Notes under the pieces: model-generated
Database searches by the model: none
Told to the model about the DNA's origin: nothing
The model's input: the letters and a program-made list of their open reading frames with translations, nothing else
Position numbers and translations under genes: made by a program
Source of the DNA: a virus
IMG/VR virus record: IMGVR_UViG_3300000148_000008
Coordinates: 1 to 25,310 of that record
Strand: one strand, 5' to 3'
DNA length: 25,310 nucleotides
In this document: in pieces, positions 1,017-17,125 of the stretch
How positions within the stretch are numbered: the stretch's first letter is position 1
How the letters are laid out: each line of letters starts with the position of its first letter

Positions 1017-3407
1017 ATGAAATTTAAAGATTACGTATTAGAAAGTATTATCGATATACCAAGACTTACTTATGCACCTGGTGTATTTGATAATGCTAAT
1101 ACGTCTAATCCAAAAATTAAAGCTAGTGTTAAGAAATTAATTAACAATCAGATTAAAGAATTTGAACAAGACTATCCTATATTGAAAATATCTTTAATTG
1201 GTTCTATTCTAACAAAGAGATATAGAAATGACGCAGACTTGGACATCAATGTATTGTTTGATGTACCAAAAGAAAAACAAGAAGATGAAAGAGTAGCACT
1301 TTCACAAAAGTATTTGTCTTCTAAAAATCCCGACAATATTCAAGGTAAAGAAATTCCAGGAACTAAACACCCTATTAATTTTTACTTTATTACAGATCAG
1401 GAAACATATGACGATCAAAATAAAAAAGCTGATGCTGTGTTTGATATAGAAAAAGATAAGTTTGTTAAACGACCAGATGATTTTGTTTTTAATACAGACT
1501 TATATGTAAAAGAGTTTGGAAGAAAAGTACAAGAATTAGACGTAGTTAAAGGTGAACTAAAAAGAGATATAATTGACTATGATGAATTAAAAGAATTACA
1601 ACCAAATGATGTTTTAGATTTACAAGATAAACTAAACGATAAGATAGAAGAAATAGAAGATAACCTTAACGACATTATTAAGATTGGTGATACTGTTGAC
1701 GCTGAAAGAAGATCAGCATTTGATAGTGATATGTCACCAGATGAGATTAGAAAGTATGGTATCAAAAATAAATTACCTAAAAATGTTATCTATAAGATGT
1801 TAGAAAAATATCACTATCTAAAATTTTATAAGAAATGTAAACAAATTTTAGATGATGGTAAAGTAACAGACGCTGAAATAGATAGTTTAAAAACTGAATC
1901 AATTGCTAGTGCTTGGAATACTCTTATTAGAAAAACAATTAAAGCTCCAAGAATGAGAGCAGGTATTAACTTATATTTAAAATATATCAGACAAGGTATG
2001 AAAGACGCTAAAAACAAAGCGGCTCAACATGCTGGTATAGATTATAATGAATTTAGTCTAGCAGTTAAAGACGTAGGATTACCAGAGGACTATGTAACAG
2101 AAGTCAGATCAGGTAAATTAACTCCAAATAGATCAGGTAAAACAATGGCGTTCACATTTGGTCGTTTTAATCCACCAACAATTGGACACGAAAAGTTAAT
2201 CAAAAAGGTTGCTAGTCAATCAGCAAATGATTACAGAATATTTTTAAGCAGATCACAAGATAGTAAAAAGAATCCTTTAGATCCAAATACTAAATTGAGA
2301 TTTATGAAAGATATATTTAAACAATATAGTAACAAGATAGAATTAAATTCTACCAACATGGTTTTAGATTTAGCAACTATGATCTATAAAAAAGATTATG
2401 AAAATATTATCATGGTAGTTGGTAGTGATAGAGTAAATGAATTTTCAACGATACTTAAAAAGTATAATGGTACCAAAAGCAGACATGGTTATTATTTTTT
2501 TGGTGATATAAACGTAGTATCAGCTGGCGAAAGAGATCCTGACGCTGAAGGAGCAATGGGTATGTCAGCAAGTAAAATGAGAAAAGCTGCAGCAGCTGGA
2601 GATTTTAAATTATTTAAAAAAGGATTGCCACCAACATATAGAAGTATACCTAATATTGAAAGATTGATGAAGTCAGTTAGACACGGTATGAACTTGGCTC
2701 TGGAATCAAGAGGACCTGTAGCAAGTATGGCAGAATTTGAACAACAACAAATTAGAGATTTATATGTTAGAGAAGTAATCTTTAACATAGGAGATAAAGT
2801 AAATTACACAAAAGAAGATTTACAAGGAATAGTAAAAAGAAGAGGAACAAATTATATTGTTTTAGAAGACAATAGTAATAGTTTACATAAGGCTTGGATA
2901 TGGGATTGTATTCCAATATCATCTGACAAAGAAGCCGCTGTAAGAGAATACAATTTAGATGTAGATTACGGGTTTAAAGCTGTATCTAGTATCGAAGAAG
3001 TAACAATTAAAGTGACACCTACACAGGATAAAGTCATAAGTAAAAAGACTAAACGATTTAGCGAATTTAAGAAAGATTTAAATATGAATAAAGATAAAAA
3101 AGAATCTTATGAAATTGGACACGATTATGCCAAACATACGATCTCATTAACTCCAGGGCAAGATGGATACGATCCAAACTACAAAGGTGGCGAATATGTC
3201 CCTAGTAAACCTGAAGATAACAAGAAACAAGTAGTTACAAGACCTATGACGACTGATATAGGTAAAAAAGATATTGAAAAATGGGCAATGTCGGATGCTA
3301 CAATTGATAAATATAGAGATAGATATAGAGAAGAATGGCGTTCTAAACTAGACGAAGTAGTAACTAGAATGTTATCAAAATTAGAGATAAACAAGGTAGA
3401 TATTTAA
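1017..3407 (+). CDS. Double nucleotidyltransferase: pol-beta-like plus NMNAT-like cytidylyltransferase, possible head-internal protein
   Basis: This 796-residue protein carries two catalytic-looking domains. Residues about 55-180 contain a polymerase-beta-type nucleotidyltransferase signature: G62-S63 followed by acidic residues D74 and D76 in NDADLDINVLFD. Residues about 377-530 form a cytidylyltransferase/NMNAT-like Rossmann domain: GRFNPPTIGH (T388, G390, H391 as the T/HxGH motif) and a C-terminal SASKMR (residues 517-522) matching the ISTxxR-type motif. Residues about 585-640 look like a small SH3/KOW-like fold, and the C-terminus is a charged helix. The family suggests nucleotidyl or adenylyl transfer, possibly in NAD metabolism, but the substrate is not shown. 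The N-terminus MKFKDYVLES resembles the T4 capsid-targeting sequence. It is coupled by TAATG to the next gene. Confidence 0.75.
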   Translation: MKFKDYVLESIIDIPRLTYAPGVFDNANTSNPKIKASVKKLINNQIKEFEQDYPILKISLIGSILTKRYRNDADLDINVLFDVPKEKQEDERVALSQKYLSSKNPDNIQGKEIPGTKHPINFYFITDQETYDDQNKKADAVFDIEKDKFVKRPDDFVFNTDLYVKEFGRKVQELDVVKGELKRDIIDYDELKELQPNDVLDLQDKLNDKIEEIEDNLNDIIKIGDTVDAERRSAFDSDMSPDEIRKYGIKNKLPKNVIYKMLEKYHYLKFYKKCKQILDDGKVTDAEIDSLKTESIASAWNTLIRKTIKAPRMRAGINLYLKYIRQGMKDAKNKAAQHAGIDYNEFSLAVKDVGLPEDYVTEVRSGKLTPNRSGKTMAFTFGRFNPPTIGHEKLIKKVASQSANDYRIFLSRSQDSKKNPLDPNTKLRFMKDIFKQYSNKIELNSTNMVLDLATMIYKKDYENIIMVVGSDRVNEFSTILKKYNGTKSRHGYYFFGDINVVSAGERDPDAEGAMGMSASKMRKAAAAGDFKLFKKGLPPTYRSIPNIERLMKSVRHGMNLALESRGPVASMAEFEQQQIRDLYVREVIFNIGDKVNYTKEDLQGIVKRRGTNYIVLEDNSNSLHKAWIWDCIPISSDKEAAVREYNLDVDYGFKAVSSIEEVTIKVTPTQDKVISKKTKRFSEFKKDLNMNKDKKESYEIGHDYAKHTISLTPGQDGYDPNYKGGEYVPSKPEDNKKQVVTRPMTTDIGKKDIEKWAMSDATIDKYRDRYREEWRSKLDEVVTRMLSKLEINKVDI

Positions 3408-10765: not shown

Positions 10766-11221
10766 ATGAAAAAATTACTAATAATACTATTATTTACAGC
10801 TTATACACAGGTAACTGCGTCAGAAATGACATTTAAATTTGGGTCACCATCATTTTCAGGTAATGGTAAGTCATCACACTACCTAACAATTGAAAATATT
10901 GAGAAGACTCGTAAAGACGCTATCAAAGCACAAGCAAAAGCAGACGCTGATAAATTAATATCAGACGCAAAGAACACACCTATTGCTAAATTCAAAGCAA
11001 ATATAGAGTCCAGATTTTATACTGCTCTTGCAAAACAAATTACAGACAATGTATTTGGTACAGATGGTCTTCAACAAGACTCAGGTTCATTTACAAATCC
11101 AGTTGGCGGCGAAACAGTTGCTTGGACAACTCCTTCAGGTACAGGTAATGTAGTAGTTACAGTTACAGAAGCAGACGGAACAACAACTGTATTTACAATG
11201 CCTAAAGAGGACAATAGTTAA
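10766..11221 (+). CDS. csgF: CsgF-like curli assembly factor
   Basis: The 151-residue protein carries a signal peptide (about residues 1-18) and then SEMTFKFGSPSFSGNG, the mature N-terminus that in CsgF inserts into and narrows the CsgG pore (E. coli GTMTFQFRNPNFGGN). Downstream, FKANIESRFYTALAKQI aligns with FTQAIQSQILGGLLSNI, and the C-terminus has VTVTEADGTTTVFTMP, like the family's final strands. It should be exported to the periplasm or outer face of the outer membrane and link CsgG to nucleation. It precedes CsgG with a TAATG overlap, and a late promoter lies 15 bases upstream. Residues about 45-75 hold a K/A-rich helical insert. The identification is strong from motif and neighbour. 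Confidence 0.85.
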   Translation: MKKLLIILLFTAYTQVTASEMTFKFGSPSFSGNGKSSHYLTIENIEKTRKDAIKAQAKADADKLISDAKNTPIAKFKANIESRFYTALAKQITDNVFGTDGLQQDSGSFTNPVGGETVAWTTPSGTGNVVVTVTEADGTTTVFTMPKEDNS

Positions 11222-12294
11222 TGTTTAGATATATAGGAATATTCCTACTATCTTTAATGTTAGTAGGTTGTGCTGGGAAAGCAAAGTTTGATGTAAGAAC
11301 ACAACAAGTTGCTTATAAAGAATTATCTACAATCAAAAGTCCAGACGGAGAACCAATTATAATTGCTGTCTATGACTTTTTAGATATGACTGGTCAAAAG
11401 AAACCAGGTGGAACTTATGCTTCAATGAGTACGGCAGTTACACAAGGGTCGTATCAGTTATTAATTAAAGCACTTGCAGACGCAGGTGATGGTAAATGGT
11501 TTAGAGTTGTAGAGAGATCAAGTTTACCAAGTTTATTACAAGAACGAAAACTAATTAGGTCTACAAGACAACAAGTAGATGGTGAAAAGGCAGAGTCTTT
11601 ACCACCACTATTATTTGCTGGTGCATACATCACAGGTGGTGTTGTAGGTTATGATAGTGATATTACTTCAGGTGGTCTTGGTGCTAGAGTTTTAGGTATA
11701 CAAGCAAACAAATCATTTAGAAAAGACATAGTAACTATCATATTAAGATTAGTTAATGTACAAACTGGTGAAGTAGTTATCTCAACTACAATAGAAAAGA
11801 CTATTATTTCTACATCAACAGGTTCAGATGTATTCAAATATTTTGATATGGATACAATGTTAGTAGAGATAGAAGCTGGTTATGCAAAAAACGAACCAGT
11901 TACATTTGCATTAAGAAAAGCAATTGAAAAAGGTGTAGTAGAAGTTATTGAACAAGGTGTAAAAAAAGAACTATGGGAGTTTAAAAAAATAGAAGAAGTT
12001 AAAGTTCCTGAGATAAAAGATTACATTGATGATGGTACAAATGATGTAGAAACTATTGAAGTTGAAACTACTAATAGACATAGTGATATTGTATTTACAG
12101 ATGATGGTGTTGATATGGGCGAAGATAAGGTAGAGAAAACTTACGAAACTTACCTTGAAGAAAAGAAATTAAAGAAAGAATTAGAAGCTGAAACCACAGA
12201 AAAAGAGTGGGAAGAAGTAGATAAACAAACGGAGGAGAATGCTGATGAAACAGATAATGATAGCGATAGTGATTCTTCTAGCGTGGACAAGTAA
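11221..12294 (+). CDS. csgG: CsgG-like outer-membrane curli secretion pore with acidic C-terminal tail
   Basis: This 357-residue lipoprotein has a signal peptide with lipobox LVGC (Cys17). CsgG motifs are clear: AVYDFLDMTGQKKPGG, STAV-QG, WFRVVERSSLPSLLQERKLI, LFAGAYITGGVVGYDS, SGGLGARVLGI, LRLVNVQTGEV and NEPVTFALRKAIEKGV. It should form the nonameric beta-barrel pore that exports curli subunits. The loop that forms the constriction (E. coli YPASNF with Y51, N55, F56) reads GGTYASM here, so the tyrosine, asparagine and phenylalanine are not conserved. Residues about 255-357 are an extra acidic tail absent from E. coli CsgG, ending in a DNDSDSDSSS stretch. Its end overlaps the next gene. The gene belongs to the csgF-csgG-curlin operon. 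Confidence 0.88.
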   Translation: MFRYIGIFLLSLMLVGCAGKAKFDVRTQQVAYKELSTIKSPDGEPIIIAVYDFLDMTGQKKPGGTYASMSTAVTQGSYQLLIKALADAGDGKWFRVVERSSLPSLLQERKLIRSTRQQVDGEKAESLPPLLFAGAYITGGVVGYDSDITSGGLGARVLGIQANKSFRKDIVTIILRLVNVQTGEVVISTTIEKTIISTSTGSDVFKYFDMDTMLVEIEAGYAKNEPVTFALRKAIEKGVVEVIEQGVKKELWEFKKIEEVKVPEIKDYIDDGTNDVETIEVETTNRHSDIVFTDDGVDMGEDKVEKTYETYLEEKKLKKELEAETTEKEWEEVDKQTEENADETDNDSDSDSSSVDK

Positions 12295-13339
12295 AATTTA
12301 CGCTGGTAATTCCGTTTGGGTTAAACAACAAAACCAAGACAGCGATGGTTCTATCTTTATAAAACAAGATGGTAATAATAATAAGGTTGGTGTTAGTACA
12401 TCACAACCTTTCATAATAGACGGAAATAATGTAACAGTTATTATCAAACAAATTGGTAATTATAATGTAACAGATAGTAACAGTCATTTGTCATTTAAAG
12501 GCGAAGATATGACATTGAAAGTGGATATTACTGGTGATACTAATAGTTTTTTGTCAGACATAGATGACGCAGACGCTACAGGACATTATTATGATCTTAA
12601 AGTTGTAGGAAATCAAAATATACTTGACTTTGACGCTTGGGCAGCTGATGATGTATCAAAAACTAATATAGATTTAGATATTGTTGGTGACTCAAATACT
12701 TTTTGGGTAAGAAGTAGAGGTGATGGTCACTTCTTATATGTTCTTATTTCAGGTGACTCAAATAATGTACAGTTTTATAGTCCTGAATCTTCAGCAGGTT
12801 TTAATACCAATTCAAACATAGCAATTGGTCCACAAGTTGAGAGTCACGGACAGTTTGCAGACACTTCAGGTAGCGAGGGTGCAACGCTGGATTTATATAT
12901 GGTAGGTAATTCAAATGAATTAGCAACTTCATCATACGGAACAGGTAACTATCAAGTACACGACATTATAGGTTCATCAAACATTTTAGGTTTACACCCT
13001 AGCCACGAAAATGATAGTACGGATCCATATGGTTCCGCATTGATTATTTCAGGCAACAATAACTATTTAAAAACAGTTGTCAATGGAAATGATAATGAAT
13101 TAAGACTACACCAATCAGGTGGCAGAAACACAGCAAGAATTTATATCTATACATCTAATTCTGATATTAATATGGCACAAACAGGTGGTGCAAATACAGC
13201 AGACATTAATGTATCAGGCGATAGTATTTACGATTACACTTTAAACTTCACACAAAATGGTTCTGATACTTGTAATTATTCTTACAATAGAAACAATCAA
13301 ACAGCAGATGTTACCGCTACTGTGGCAAACGGATGCTAA
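12245..13339 (+). CDS. Curlin-like repeat protein, candidate amyloid/fibre subunit
   Basis: The product has 364 residues from ATG 12245 (spaced 9 bases from GGAGG; ATG 12239 is also possible) and starts with a signal peptide, MKQIMIAIVILLAWTSKIYA. About a dozen GxxN turns recur (GNNN, GNYN, GDTN, GNQN, GDSN twice, GNSN, GSSN, GNNN, GNDN, GGRN, GGAN), with IKQ and QSGG/QTGG elements that match the curlin Q-x-G-x-x-N signature. The spacing is irregular and larger than in CsgA, which has five repeats of about 22 residues, so this is a divergent curlin-type beta-solenoid. Two C-terminal cysteines could cap it. Its first 50 bases lie in the acidic tail of csgG, in another frame. It is the probable substrate of CsgG. 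Confidence 0.7.
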   Translation: MKQIMIAIVILLAWTSKIYAGNSVWVKQQNQDSDGSIFIKQDGNNNKVGVSTSQPFIIDGNNVTVIIKQIGNYNVTDSNSHLSFKGEDMTLKVDITGDTNSFLSDIDDADATGHYYDLKVVGNQNILDFDAWAADDVSKTNIDLDIVGDSNTFWVRSRGDGHFLYVLISGDSNNVQFYSPESSAGFNTNSNIAIGPQVESHGQFADTSGSEGATLDLYMVGNSNELATSSYGTGNYQVHDIIGSSNILGLHPSHENDSTDPYGSALIISGNNNYLKTVVNGNDNELRLHQSGGRNTARIYIYTSNSDINMAQTGGANTADINVSGDSIYDYTLNFTQNGSDTCNYSYNRNNQTADVTATVANGC

Positions 13340-15490
13340 ATGTTCAAACTTAAATTTTTCATAACACTTATAGTGCTATTGTGTACTACTGCCTTTGCTC
13401 AGATAACTGGTCCTAAAGTTGGAGAAGTTATAGGTCAAATGGGTACGACTTGGAATGAAAGAGAGGGTAAAACTCAAAACACTTCAACAGGTTATGAGTT
13501 ACAGATGAAAGACTTTCTTCAAACAGGTGAAGATGGTGGTATGATATTAAACTATGCTGATGGCACTAAATTTACAATGGGTCCGAATACAGAATTAACT
13601 ATTGATGAATTTGCTTTTGATACTTCAGTTATACCGATAGAATTAGCAATGAATGTATCTGTTAATGTTGGTACATTTACATATGAATCAGGAAAAGTAT
13701 CTACTTTAGGTGGCGAAGTTAATATAAGTGCTGGTAATGCTGTAATCACAGTACAAGGTACAGCCTTCTCTGGAAGAGTTGATACTTCAGGTCACGCAAC
13801 GATTACTTTACTACCAGATAGTCAAGGTAATGTAGGACAAGTTACTGTATCCAATGACGCAGGCTCTCAAACAATTACAAACGCATTTAGTTCCGTAACT
13901 GTTTTCGGTAATGATTTAGCACCAACACCTCCTAGAATAGAAATAGACAAAAGGAAAATTATTCAGTTAGATAGTTTTGAAGAAGAAATAAGAGATGAAA
14001 CTGAAAGAGGTTTTGGTGATGTAGATACTAAATCTAGTAATGCACAAAATAGTGAAGACGCAATTTTTAATGAAGAATCAAATATAGTTGAAGATAGTAA
14101 TACTATTATTCAAACTGATATGTCAATAAGTGAATCAGATTCAATGATTGAACTAGAATCCAAAGAAGAAAAAGCCTTAGACGCAGCTGGAACTGCTGCT
14201 GAAGCTGAAATAGATACATCTTACTATGATGATTATGAAGATGATTTAAAAGATTGGGGTTACATAGATGAAGACAATCAGATTTCAGTATGGGATGCCG
14301 ATGGTGAAAGTAAAATGGATTGGGATGACGCTAAGAAAATGTATGCAGAAATGGATCAAGCATACTTTGACGCCATAGGTTGTGAGTCAGGCTGTAATTA
14401 CGATACAATTGATTGGGATTCTATTGATTGGGATAATGTAGATTGGGATGCTTATGATGAGGCATATAACGATACACTAGAAAAATATGGTTTAACTTCT
14501 TACAATTCAACAGTTGAAGAAGTTGATGTTGTTGAAGACACAAAAGACGAAACATCAGCAGGTATAGATGGATATGATTGGGAAGATTTTATGTTAGATG
14601 ATAATTATTATTCTAACGCAGAATATAAATCAAAAGGTGGTCCTCCAACATTAACAGTACAAAACTATTGTGAGTATAATGGTTACGAAGATTACTGGTG
14701 CAACCAAGAGTATGTTGACTATCTAAATGACTGGTACAAAAATGACTGGTATTTAAAAGTAACTGCTACAAGTTGGGATACAAAATCTAAAGATATATTT
14801 GGTAAACTATTTGGTTGGTGTGGAAATTGGCCAGATTATAAGATGTGTGAAAATCAACCTAAACCTTGGAAGATGAAAGACTTGAAAGACAAGTACATAA
14901 CTAATTGGGATTACAACGATTACAATACTTACTATGACGCTGCTTATGACTGGTGGTACACAGGTTACGATTACAATAATGAAACAGATGAAACCAATTG
15001 GGAAGATGAGTATGCTTACGAAGATAATTACGATATAGACGCAGAATTAGAAATACTATTAGCAAGTTATGACAAAGATCAATGTATGAAATACGGATAC
15101 TATTGGAATGTTGCTGGTCAATCTTGTGGAACTGAATGGGTTGATAACGAGGGTAATGAAACAAAAGTAACTGCTAGTGGTGAAATATTAAACTATACAA
15201 CAGGTGATGTAACTCAAACATTAACATCAACATCTGGAGTTACAGGTGCTTCATCTTCAGCAACATCAACAGGTAGAGTATCAACATTGAATAATAACTC
15301 TGACGCTACAGCAAGTGCTGCTGACGGATTTACTACTCTTAATAGATATAACGATAATCATAGAGCATATATTATAACTGATACTAGCGAAGAAGCAGAC
15401 ATACAAATAATACAAGATTCTGAGGCACAACATTTAGATGTAGGTACTAGTGCTGCTCAATCCAATATCACTATAATACAAACGAACTAA
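13340..15490 (+). CDS. Secreted FecR-domain protein with D/W/Y-rich region and curlin-like C-terminus
   Basis: The 716-residue protein starts with a signal peptide (residues about 1-20, cut near AFA). Residues about 60-180 are a FecR-type domain: ILNYADGTKFTMGPNTEL, VNVGTFTYESGKVSTLGG and ITVQGTAFSGRVD. A long linker follows, then a very unusual stretch rich in Asp, Trp and Tyr (about residues 285-580) with an IDWDS-type pentapeptide repeat. The last 30 residues contain IQIIQ and ITIIQ spaced 22 residues apart, the length of a curlin repeat, which suggests a nucleator-like tail. In other bacteria, FecR proteins are often neighbours of CHASE2 cyclases, as here. It has no transmembrane anchor besides the signal peptide. 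Confidence 0.75.
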   Translation: MFKLKFFITLIVLLCTTAFAQITGPKVGEVIGQMGTTWNEREGKTQNTSTGYELQMKDFLQTGEDGGMILNYADGTKFTMGPNTELTIDEFAFDTSVIPIELAMNVSVNVGTFTYESGKVSTLGGEVNISAGNAVITVQGTAFSGRVDTSGHATITLLPDSQGNVGQVTVSNDAGSQTITNAFSSVTVFGNDLAPTPPRIEIDKRKIIQLDSFEEEIRDETERGFGDVDTKSSNAQNSEDAIFNEESNIVEDSNTIIQTDMSISESDSMIELESKEEKALDAAGTAAEAEIDTSYYDDYEDDLKDWGYIDEDNQISVWDADGESKMDWDDAKKMYAEMDQAYFDAIGCESGCNYDTIDWDSIDWDNVDWDAYDEAYNDTLEKYGLTSYNSTVEEVDVVEDTKDETSAGIDGYDWEDFMLDDNYYSNAEYKSKGGPPTLTVQNYCEYNGYEDYWCNQEYVDYLNDWYKNDWYLKVTATSWDTKSKDIFGKLFGWCGNWPDYKMCENQPKPWKMKDLKDKYITNWDYNDYNTYYDAAYDWWYTGYDYNNETDETNWEDEYAYEDNYDIDAELEILLASYDKDQCMKYGYYWNVAGQSCGTEWVDNEGNETKVTASGEILNYTTGDVTQTLTSTSGVTGASSSATSTGRVSTLNNNSDATASAADGFTTLNRYNDNHRAYIITDTSEEADIQIIQDSEAQHLDVGTSAAQSNITIIQTN
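14408..14452 (+). repeat. Three tandem 15-bp repeats encoding I/V-D-W-D-x
   Basis: Three in-frame 15-base units (consensus ATTGATTGGGATNNN) encode IDWDS, IDWDN and VDWDA inside the FecR-domain gene, residues 357-371. They mark the start of its D/W/Y-rich region. Replication slippage can change the copy number of such units. Confidence 0.75.
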
Positions 15491-15508: not shown

Positions 15509-17125
15509 ATGAACAAATTTACTACCACTTGGGCTGTGGTTATGAGTGTTGTTATATTATTAGGATTGAAAATATTTAATCCGGCACCTTTACAGACCCT
15601 TGAATTAAAAACATTTGATTTCTACCAGAAATTTGGTATCAATTACGAATCTAAAAGCCTAATATTACTAGACATATCAGATAAGGCTTTGAAAAAAGAA
15701 GGTCAATGGCCGTGGAAAAGAGATAAACTAGGTCGTACTATCATCAACGCATATAAGAACGGTGCTGCTGTAGTCTTTCTGAATGTAGTATTTGTTCATA
15801 AAGATAGACTTGGTGGTGATGATATGTTTTTGAAGATGATTGATAAGTACCCTATCATATTAACTGAAACAAGTCAAGCAAAAAATTTAATCAGTATAAA
15901 ACAAAAAGCATTAGCAGTAGGTGACGTAGAAGTACCTATTGATGTTGACGGTACAATACGAAAATTACCACTTGACAATTCTGTTCCAAGTGTTATAATG
16001 AAGGTCATAAAGTTTCCTATACCAAATCAACATGATATATGGATTGATTTTAGACACAATATAACTAGAATAGATTACGTAGATAAAGATTGGTCAGCTA
16101 TGAAAGGTAAGATAGTTCTTATTGGTACAACTTTTCAAGGTTCTACTTTTGTTCTCACACCAGATGGTCTAAAGAATACACACGAGATAATGGCATTGTC
16201 AACAGAAACTTTACTATCAGGTAAGTTTATAACTAGACCAGATTGGATTATATACGTAGAGTTTGCTGTGATGATTATAGGAATGGGCCTATTCATATTA
16301 TTGATACCTAGACTTGGTATAGTAATGTCACTTGTGCCATTTATACTATACAACATATTAATCATATTGTCAAGTTTTTATTTATTTAAGTCATATTTGT
16401 ACTTGACAAATTGGTTATATCCTGTTATAATGGGCTGTATAATATTCTCACATTTAATATACAATAATTTTATTAGAGAGAATAGATTAAAATTACAAAT
16501 TAAAAAACAATTTGAACATTATCTTTCGCCAGATATGGTCAAGAAATTACAAGATAATCCTAGTCTATTAAAACTAGGTGGCGAAACAAGAGAGTTAACT
16601 TTTCTATTCTGTGACATAAGAGGGTTTACTACTATATCAGAAAAATATCAAAAGAAACCACAGGAATTAACAAAACTTATCAATGCATTTCTAACACCAA
16701 TGACTAATATTATTCTAAAGTCAGGTGGGACAATTGATAAATATATGGGAGATTGTATCATGGCGTTTTGGAACGCACCACTTGACTGTCCTAATCATCA
16801 GCATAAAGCAATTATAGCTGCTAAGATTATGAGAGAAACTATGCGAAAATTGAACTTAGGTTTTAAAATAGGCATTGGTATTAATAGTGGTAAAGCAGTT
16901 GTGGGTAACATGGGAAGCAATCAAAGATTTGATTATTCAGTACTAGGTGACGCAGTTAACTTAGCGAGTAGATTAGAGGGACAAAGTAAAGAATTTAACA
17001 CAACAATTGTAGTAGGTGAAGACACATACAAAGAGGCAAAAGAGTTACATAAAAGAATGTACAAATTAGGTAGGGTAACTGTCAAGGGTAAATCTAATAA
17101 AGTTAAAATATATTCAATAAAATGA
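15509..17125 (+). CDS. CHASE2-domain class III adenylate cyclase
   Basis: The 538-residue inner-membrane protein would make cAMP from ATP. Layout: TM1 (about 8-22), a periplasmic CHASE2 sensor (about 25-240), three TM segments (about 246-320), a short HAMP-less linker, then the cyclase catalytic domain (about 345-538). Catalytic residues are intact: metal-binding D369 (FLFCDIRGFT) and D415 (KYMGDCIMAFW), substrate lysine K411, and transition-state N484 and R488 (NLASRLEG). The adenine-contact position is S477 (DYSVLGD) in place of the canonical Asp, as in class IIIb cyclases, which usually carry Thr/Ser. It follows the FecR gene after 18 bases, with AAAGGAATAACT upstream. The ATGA end is coupled to the next ORF. 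The trigger ligand is unknown. Confidence 0.85.
   Translation: MNKFTTTWAVVMSVVILLGLKIFNPAPLQTLELKTFDFYQKFGINYESKSLILLDISDKALKKEGQWPWKRDKLGRTIINAYKNGAAVVFLNVVFVHKDRLGGDDMFLKMIDKYPIILTETSQAKNLISIKQKALAVGDVEVPIDVDGTIRKLPLDNSVPSVIMKVIKFPIPNQHDIWIDFRHNITRIDYVDKDWSAMKGKIVLIGTTFQGSTFVLTPDGLKNTHEIMALSTETLLSGKFITRPDWIIYVEFAVMIIGMGLFILLIPRLGIVMSLVPFILYNILIILSSFYLFKSYLYLTNWLYPVIMGCIIFSHLIYNNFIRENRLKLQIKKQFEHYLSPDMVKKLQDNPSLLKLGGETRELTFLFCDIRGFTTISEKYQKKPQELTKLINAFLTPMTNIILKSGGTIDKYMGDCIMAFWNAPLDCPNHQHKAIIAAKIMRETMRKLNLGFKIGIGINSGKAVVGNMGSNQRFDYSVLGDAVNLASRLEGQSKEFNTTIVVGEDTYKEAKELHKRMYKLGRVTVKGKSNKVKIYSIK

Follow-up and report, generated by a model that had tools for sequence, protein, structure and literature searches.

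Curli genes in pelagimyophages were reported by Zaragoza-Solas et al. 2020 (PMC7029224), and Wittmers et al. 2022 described a cyclase and a FecR protein of alphaproteobacterial origin as parts of the module, drew on the analogy with gammaproteobacteria to suggest that curli are regulated, and reported transfer of the module between phage families (PMC9599517). A role in lysis has been proposed for CsgGF by the authors of phage Melnitz (PMC9004378). In phage HTVC008M the gene is annotated as adenylate/guanylyl cyclase and its product, CHASE2 together with a class III cyclase, is encoded beside FecR, curlin, CsgG and CsgF, as in the locus studied here.

CHASE2 proteins with envelope partners have also been described in bacteria. 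In S. meliloti the CHASE2 cyclases CyaD1, CyaD2 and CyaK sense a plant protein via the outer-membrane barrel NsrA, upon which cAMP rises (PMC13001267), and their input depends on a cell-envelope protein, a feature that the phage enzyme would share; unlike the phage locus, this system has a CRP-type receptor, Clr, in the host and no curli. In Campylobacterota most CHASE2 cyclases are encoded in a cluster with a phosphodiesterase, a TPR protein and an outer-membrane protein of FecR type (PMC9239204), and the grouping with a FecR envelope protein is again like the phage locus while the cellular setting, the lack of curli and the phosphodiesterase are not. In Burkholderia a FecR/LysM protein adjoins a CHASE2 histidine kinase (PMC5192318).

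The window, by which we mean the whole stretch of DNA analysed, is a 25.3-kb virus record of IMG/VR whose primase shares 69.5% identity with its counterpart in Pelagibacter phage Mosig and 48% with the one in HTVC008M, in line with the phage origin given in an earlier note on this DNA. Its source is probably a T4-like phage, marine and probably infecting SAR11 bacteria, the exact host being one that we infer. Elsewhere in the window, at 1017-3407, a protein of 796 aa with a central cytidylyltransferase-like domain (aa 374-631, 48% to Melnitz) is encoded, for which no full-length match was found among the phage records of the collection. The cyclase gene closes a tightly spaced block with the order CsgF-CsgG-curlin-FecR-cyclase, in which the following features were identified:

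10766-11221, + strand: CsgF, curli chaperone/anchor (Pfam CsgF, E 9e-12)
11221-12294, + strand: CsgG, curli outer-membrane pore with an acidic C-terminal extension (Pfam CsgG, E 4e-50)
12239-13339, + strand: curlin-repeat fibre protein, CsgA/B-like, 366 aa (Pfam Curlin_rpt, E 7e-8)
13340-15490, + strand: FecR-domain protein, 716 aa, predicted to be secreted, N-terminal FecR-like fold (Pfam FecR, E 7e-4, below cut-off; homology; fold)
15308-15487, + strand: C-terminal beta strands of FecR ending ...NITIIQTN, putative curlin-like strand (strand pattern, conservation, AlphaFold2 strands)
15509-17125, + strand: CHASE2 - 3 TM - class III (IIIb-type) nucleotide cyclase, 538 aa (Pfam, residues, conservation, AlphaFold2, structure matches)
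15557-16294, + strand: CHASE2 sensor domain, residues 17-262 (Pfam PF05226, E 2e-27; AlphaFold2 secondary structure)
16589-17119, + strand: cyclase catalytic domain, residues 361-537 (PF00211, Guanylate_cyc, E 1.5e-20; conservation; structure match to CyaB/CyaC)

With CsgF, CsgG, curlin, FecR and cyclase adjacent, FecR being recognised by homology and fold, the block has the make-up of a pelagiphage T8SS (curli) module. When compared with HTVC008M the cyclase is only ~32% identical and ~70 residues shorter, there is a single curlin gene, and FecR has 716 aa instead of ~370 aa; unlike the podovirus version of the module, no recognised histidine kinase gene lies in front. The window enzyme is a divergent instance of the published pelagiphage cyclase, and what is added here to the published work is the FecR tail, a second module of type I secretion and the missing receptor. 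The earlier note had regarded phage genes for making cAMP as rare, a view that does not hold, with at least 600 matching stretches in viral contigs, the published gene of the pelagiphage curli module (PMC9599517) and the annotation in HTVC008M.

The cyclase ORF starts with ATG directly downstream of an AGGA-type ribosome-binding site, and the matches to CHASE2 and Guanylate_cyc both exceed the curated cut-offs of Pfam. The AlphaFold2 model (pLDDT 89.3) consists of a membrane-length helix (aa 7-23), CHASE2, three long helices (aa 245-268, 271-296 and 303-335), the last of which extends into the linker, and the catalytic domain. Pfam and AlphaFold2 together give the layout TM - CHASE2 - 3 TM - output domain of CHASE2 sensor cyclases, and the flanking helices place CHASE2, by prediction, in the periplasm. 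This agrees with the earlier note, which had put CHASE2 outside the membrane and had located the ORF exactly as a class III, IIIb-type cyclase, a reading borne out by domains and fold. Within the gene two perfect TTGACA-TATAAT promoter-like sites with a TG extension were seen (15972-15999 and 16403-16431, + strand); a promoter and terminator scan of the window gave site counts close to those of shuffled sequences, and a search with Rfam found no RNA elements in the window.

Both the Guanylate_cyc domain and the fold assign the protein to the class III cyclases. The model superimposes at 1.6 A on CyaB of P. aeruginosa (Z 25.2) and on CyaC of Spirulina (Z 25.1), and the likeness to these class IIIb catalytic domains (Z 25) includes the Lys + Thr/Ser base contacts, while their sensor domains are different ones. 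Residues D369, K411, D415, S477, N484 and R488 were all found where the earlier note had numbered them, the metal-binding Asp pair and the transition-state Asn and Arg being D369, D415, N484 and R488, and they are practically invariant in a set of 83 viral sequences (the window, 80 IMG/VR loci, HTVC008M and Melnitz). D369, K411, D415 and R488 are retained in 83/83 and N484 in 82/83; at position 477 there is S in 71 sequences, T in 11 and D in one. K411 and S477 make up the Lys + Thr/Ser pair for adenine contact, found as Lys + Ser/Thr in 82 of the 83; in a phmmer alignment S477 is aligned with the Thr of CyaB and of OaPAC, which together with the CyaB/CyaC fold upholds the class IIIb base contact that the earlier note had read at this residue. 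The guanylyl cyclase Cya2 is also among the top structural matches (Z 24.5), as would fit an enzyme that mainly makes cGMP or another product, but in the same alignment its base-contact positions are Glu/Gly against Lys/Ser in the window protein, and with the pair kept in nearly all homologues we hold such an activity to be very unlikely.

The sole exception among the 83 is the cyclase of Melnitz (L083:8998-11049), with the equivalents of N484S and S477D; judged from these substitutions its activity is probably altered or reduced, and at least one curli-carrying phage may do without the same activity. Among close pairs dN/dS was 0.09-0.17 for the whole gene and, for the nearest relatives, 0.05-0.09 for the catalytic domain. 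According to sequence and structure prediction, the catalytic domain is intact, with adenylate-type base contacts, and under strong purifying selection. Within the close clade the mean identity to the window is higher in CHASE2 (78%) than in the catalytic domain (69%). Two loci (L020:8998-10653 and L021:8894-10549) encode a window-type CHASE2 fused to an HTVC008M-like catalytic domain, and synonymous divergence is unequal between the two halves of the cyclase; both point to recombination between the sensor half and the catalytic half.

When analysing the surroundings of the related genes, the order in curli-type loci was found to be CsgF-CsgG-curlin-FecR-(curlin)-cyclase, and of the related loci of curli type 37 extend 4 kb or more upstream, all of them with CsgG, curlin and FecR and 36 also with CsgF. 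In nine relatives (L010, L012-L015, L017, L019, L022 and L023) the observed curli genes are on the opposite strand and oriented divergently to the cyclase, yet adjoin it all the same, and the linkage is therefore not explained by co-transcription alone.

In a further group of loci (L040, L046, L064 and relatives) the cyclase has no curli genes next to it. The order in L040 runs from a FecR-cadherin protein (1299 aa) through an OEP outer-membrane channel, the membrane domain of a type I permease (250 aa only, with no ATPase domain found) and HlyD to the cyclase, and in L046 the protein at the place equivalent to FecR-cadherin carries RTX repeats. The loci with this type I module are:

L040:1519-10932, L046:1-6515, L171, L191, L199, L206, L210 and L226

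All of the 49 viral loci with at least 4 kb upstream, a count that includes a few duplicated contigs (e.g. L040/L165 and L028/L235), carry either curli (38) or the type I module (11); that every such viral homologue adjoins a surface-polymer module is a new observation, and a search of one open literature collection found no published description of the type I version. In L189 one cyclase has type I genes upstream and CsgF/CsgG and FecR downstream, and L225, cut off on its upstream side, has CsgF/CsgG and FecR next to a cyclase that falls in the type I clade. The tree sets the viral cyclases apart from the bacterial ones sampled, which are the best tblastn hits only (SH-aLRT 100), and 16 type I-module sequences form a single clade (SH-aLRT 100); L064, drawn among the curli-type rows, has an HlyD gene and is unplaced at the base of the tree. 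The cyclase could be a passenger of the curli module that works as in its alphaproteobacterial donor and is kept because the block moves whole, as the operon-like spacing and the published transfer of the module between phage families (PMC9599517) would allow. We regard this as quite unlikely, given a dN/dS of ~0.1, the invariant catalytic residues, the occurrence of the same cyclase family with an unrelated secretion system and the adjacency that persists despite inversion of the curli block.

A signal of the Pycsar kind, or another one against phages or superinfection, was also considered. The PycC models of PADLOC do match the catalytic domain (best E 4e-26), which is expected of any class III cyclase, but a cyclic-nucleotide-sensing effector next to it was not found: FecR and curlin gave no defence match in PADLOC, the two ORFs downstream of the cyclase hold no effector recognised by Pfam, and the window has no cNMP_binding domain. 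As the base contacts fit adenylate cyclases, and a CHASE2 sensor with a fibre module is not part of Pycsar, this is in our judgement the least probable of the readings considered and most unlikely to be true.

To characterise the FecR protein its fold and C-terminus were analysed. Its identification rests on fold and on homology to FecR of HTVC008M and Melnitz, the Pfam match (E 7e-4) falling short of the cut-off. In the AlphaFold2 model, whose middle has low confidence, the N-terminal part resembles the PupR cell-surface signalling domain (E 4.5e-5) and to a lesser degree the cell-surface anchoring domain 5ix9 (E 0.0055), and NCBIfam gave a weak match to a LapA-type retention module (E 0.009). 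The C-terminus of the phage FecR proteins is a short strand of the form [VILFMT]x[VIL]xQx0-3-COOH, e.g. ITIIQTN. This pattern was spotted before it was counted, in FecR sequences that are mutually related, and occurs in 52 of 53 FecR proteins of phage curli modules (33/34 once near-identical tails were removed), in 6/967 other viral ORFs (0.6%), in none of 32 bacterial FecR partners and in 15/2407 bacterial ORFs. The same ending is found in about half of the phage curlin proteins (39/74). Mean column identity in the FecR alignment is 31%, with I712 and Q714 nearly invariant. A Pfam curlin repeat in the tail was rejected, the C-terminal piece being unmatched even at E 1; the tail is called curlin-like from its strand pattern, its conservation and the AlphaFold2 strands. 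The strict pairing of the cyclase with a fibre-tailed FecR is an addition of the present analysis.

Among the 80 nearest bacterial loci a FecR gene is located within 9 kb of the CHASE2 cyclase in 32, often directly adjoining it, and no csg genes were found near any of the 80 by tblastn. The bacterial FecR domains are carried by TPR proteins ending ...RF with an outer-membrane-barrel-like end (Sinorhizobium L145, where the FecR-TPR gene adjoins the relative of the cyclase, and Microvirga L147) or by cadherin/RTX surface proteins (L086 and L126). The published precedents and the phage data speak for FecR as the partner of CHASE2, with the part fused to FecR setting what is read, but fall short of proof.

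Taken together, we consider it somewhat more probable than the opposite, as judged from sequences and models, that the gene product is an adenylate cyclase, active and membrane-bound, which serves as sensor of the phage curli module. The conserved residues of catalysis, a dN/dS of ~0.1, the CyaB/CyaC fold and the unbroken association with FecR and a surface polymer all speak for it. FecR would be the periplasmic partner that docks on CHASE2, its curlin-type tail would connect it with the fibre under assembly or with the CsgG/CsgF exit site, and a change in fibre assembly or in the outer envelope would alter the FecR-CHASE2 contact and so switch the dimeric cyclase. The suggestion of the earlier note that the protein reads the state of the curli layer has thus gained the link to curli and is the best-supported mechanism, while the docking of FecR on CHASE2, like the entry of the tail into the fibre, is a step that we infer.

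Class III cyclases usually feed CRP-family regulators, and cAMP could accordingly act through a CRP-type regulator of the host as a switch for host or curli genes, in the manner of E. coli, which was the rewiring foreseen in the earlier note and has a parallel in Wittmers et al.; in the bacterial relative L126 (genome G001) the cyclase is indeed flanked on both sides by cNMP-binding genes. The host side was analysed in a sample of 60 SAR11-family genomes, many of which may be incomplete, anchored by two members matching four SAR11 16S probes, by which we take the family to be identified. The cNMP_binding domain (PF00027) was found in two of the 60 genomes and was absent from the other 58 and from all of 13 phage records. 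A canonical cAMP-CRP pathway was accordingly not recovered in phage or host, and because of these counts a CRP-mediated effect is unlikely in SAR11 and is disfavoured relative to the sensing of a surface polymer. Since no CRP-type receptor was found in the phages tested or in nearly all of the SAR11-family genomes, the cAMP output probably passes via an unrecognised receptor.

No class I cyclase was found in the 60 genomes, and a class III cyclase only in two (L247 and L248), the same two that have CsgG. In each the cyclase and CsgG are located on one contig ~3-4 kb apart, and the cyclase of L248 by eye closely resembles that of phage L078; a host-encoded cyclase was rejected for both, as they are most likely phage contigs. 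Sequence searches hence gave no clear cyclase of the host's own among the 60 genomes. L248 lies in a 0.9-Mb SAR11-family genome (G441, contig C11), a possible host link for curli phages.

More tentatively, and on balance doubtfully, marine phages may share a conserved surface-polymer checkpoint in which a FecR adaptor with an exchangeable end, a curlin strand or an RTX adhesin, reports the assembly of a phage-made layer to a CHASE2 adenylate cyclase, and which in a host without a cAMP system of its own would imply that phage or cell has a cAMP receptor of a new kind. In abundance the SAR11 hosts rank with the foremost cells on Earth, and their curli phages appear to bring a surface fibre and a second-messenger sensor to hosts that have neither. 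The missing cAMP receptor offers a definite target for searches. A link between sensor and fibre through the FecR tail, if it exists, would account for the constant company of cyclase, FecR and polymer genes, and it would turn the function of phage curli into a defined question, whether a block of fibre assembly changes cAMP.
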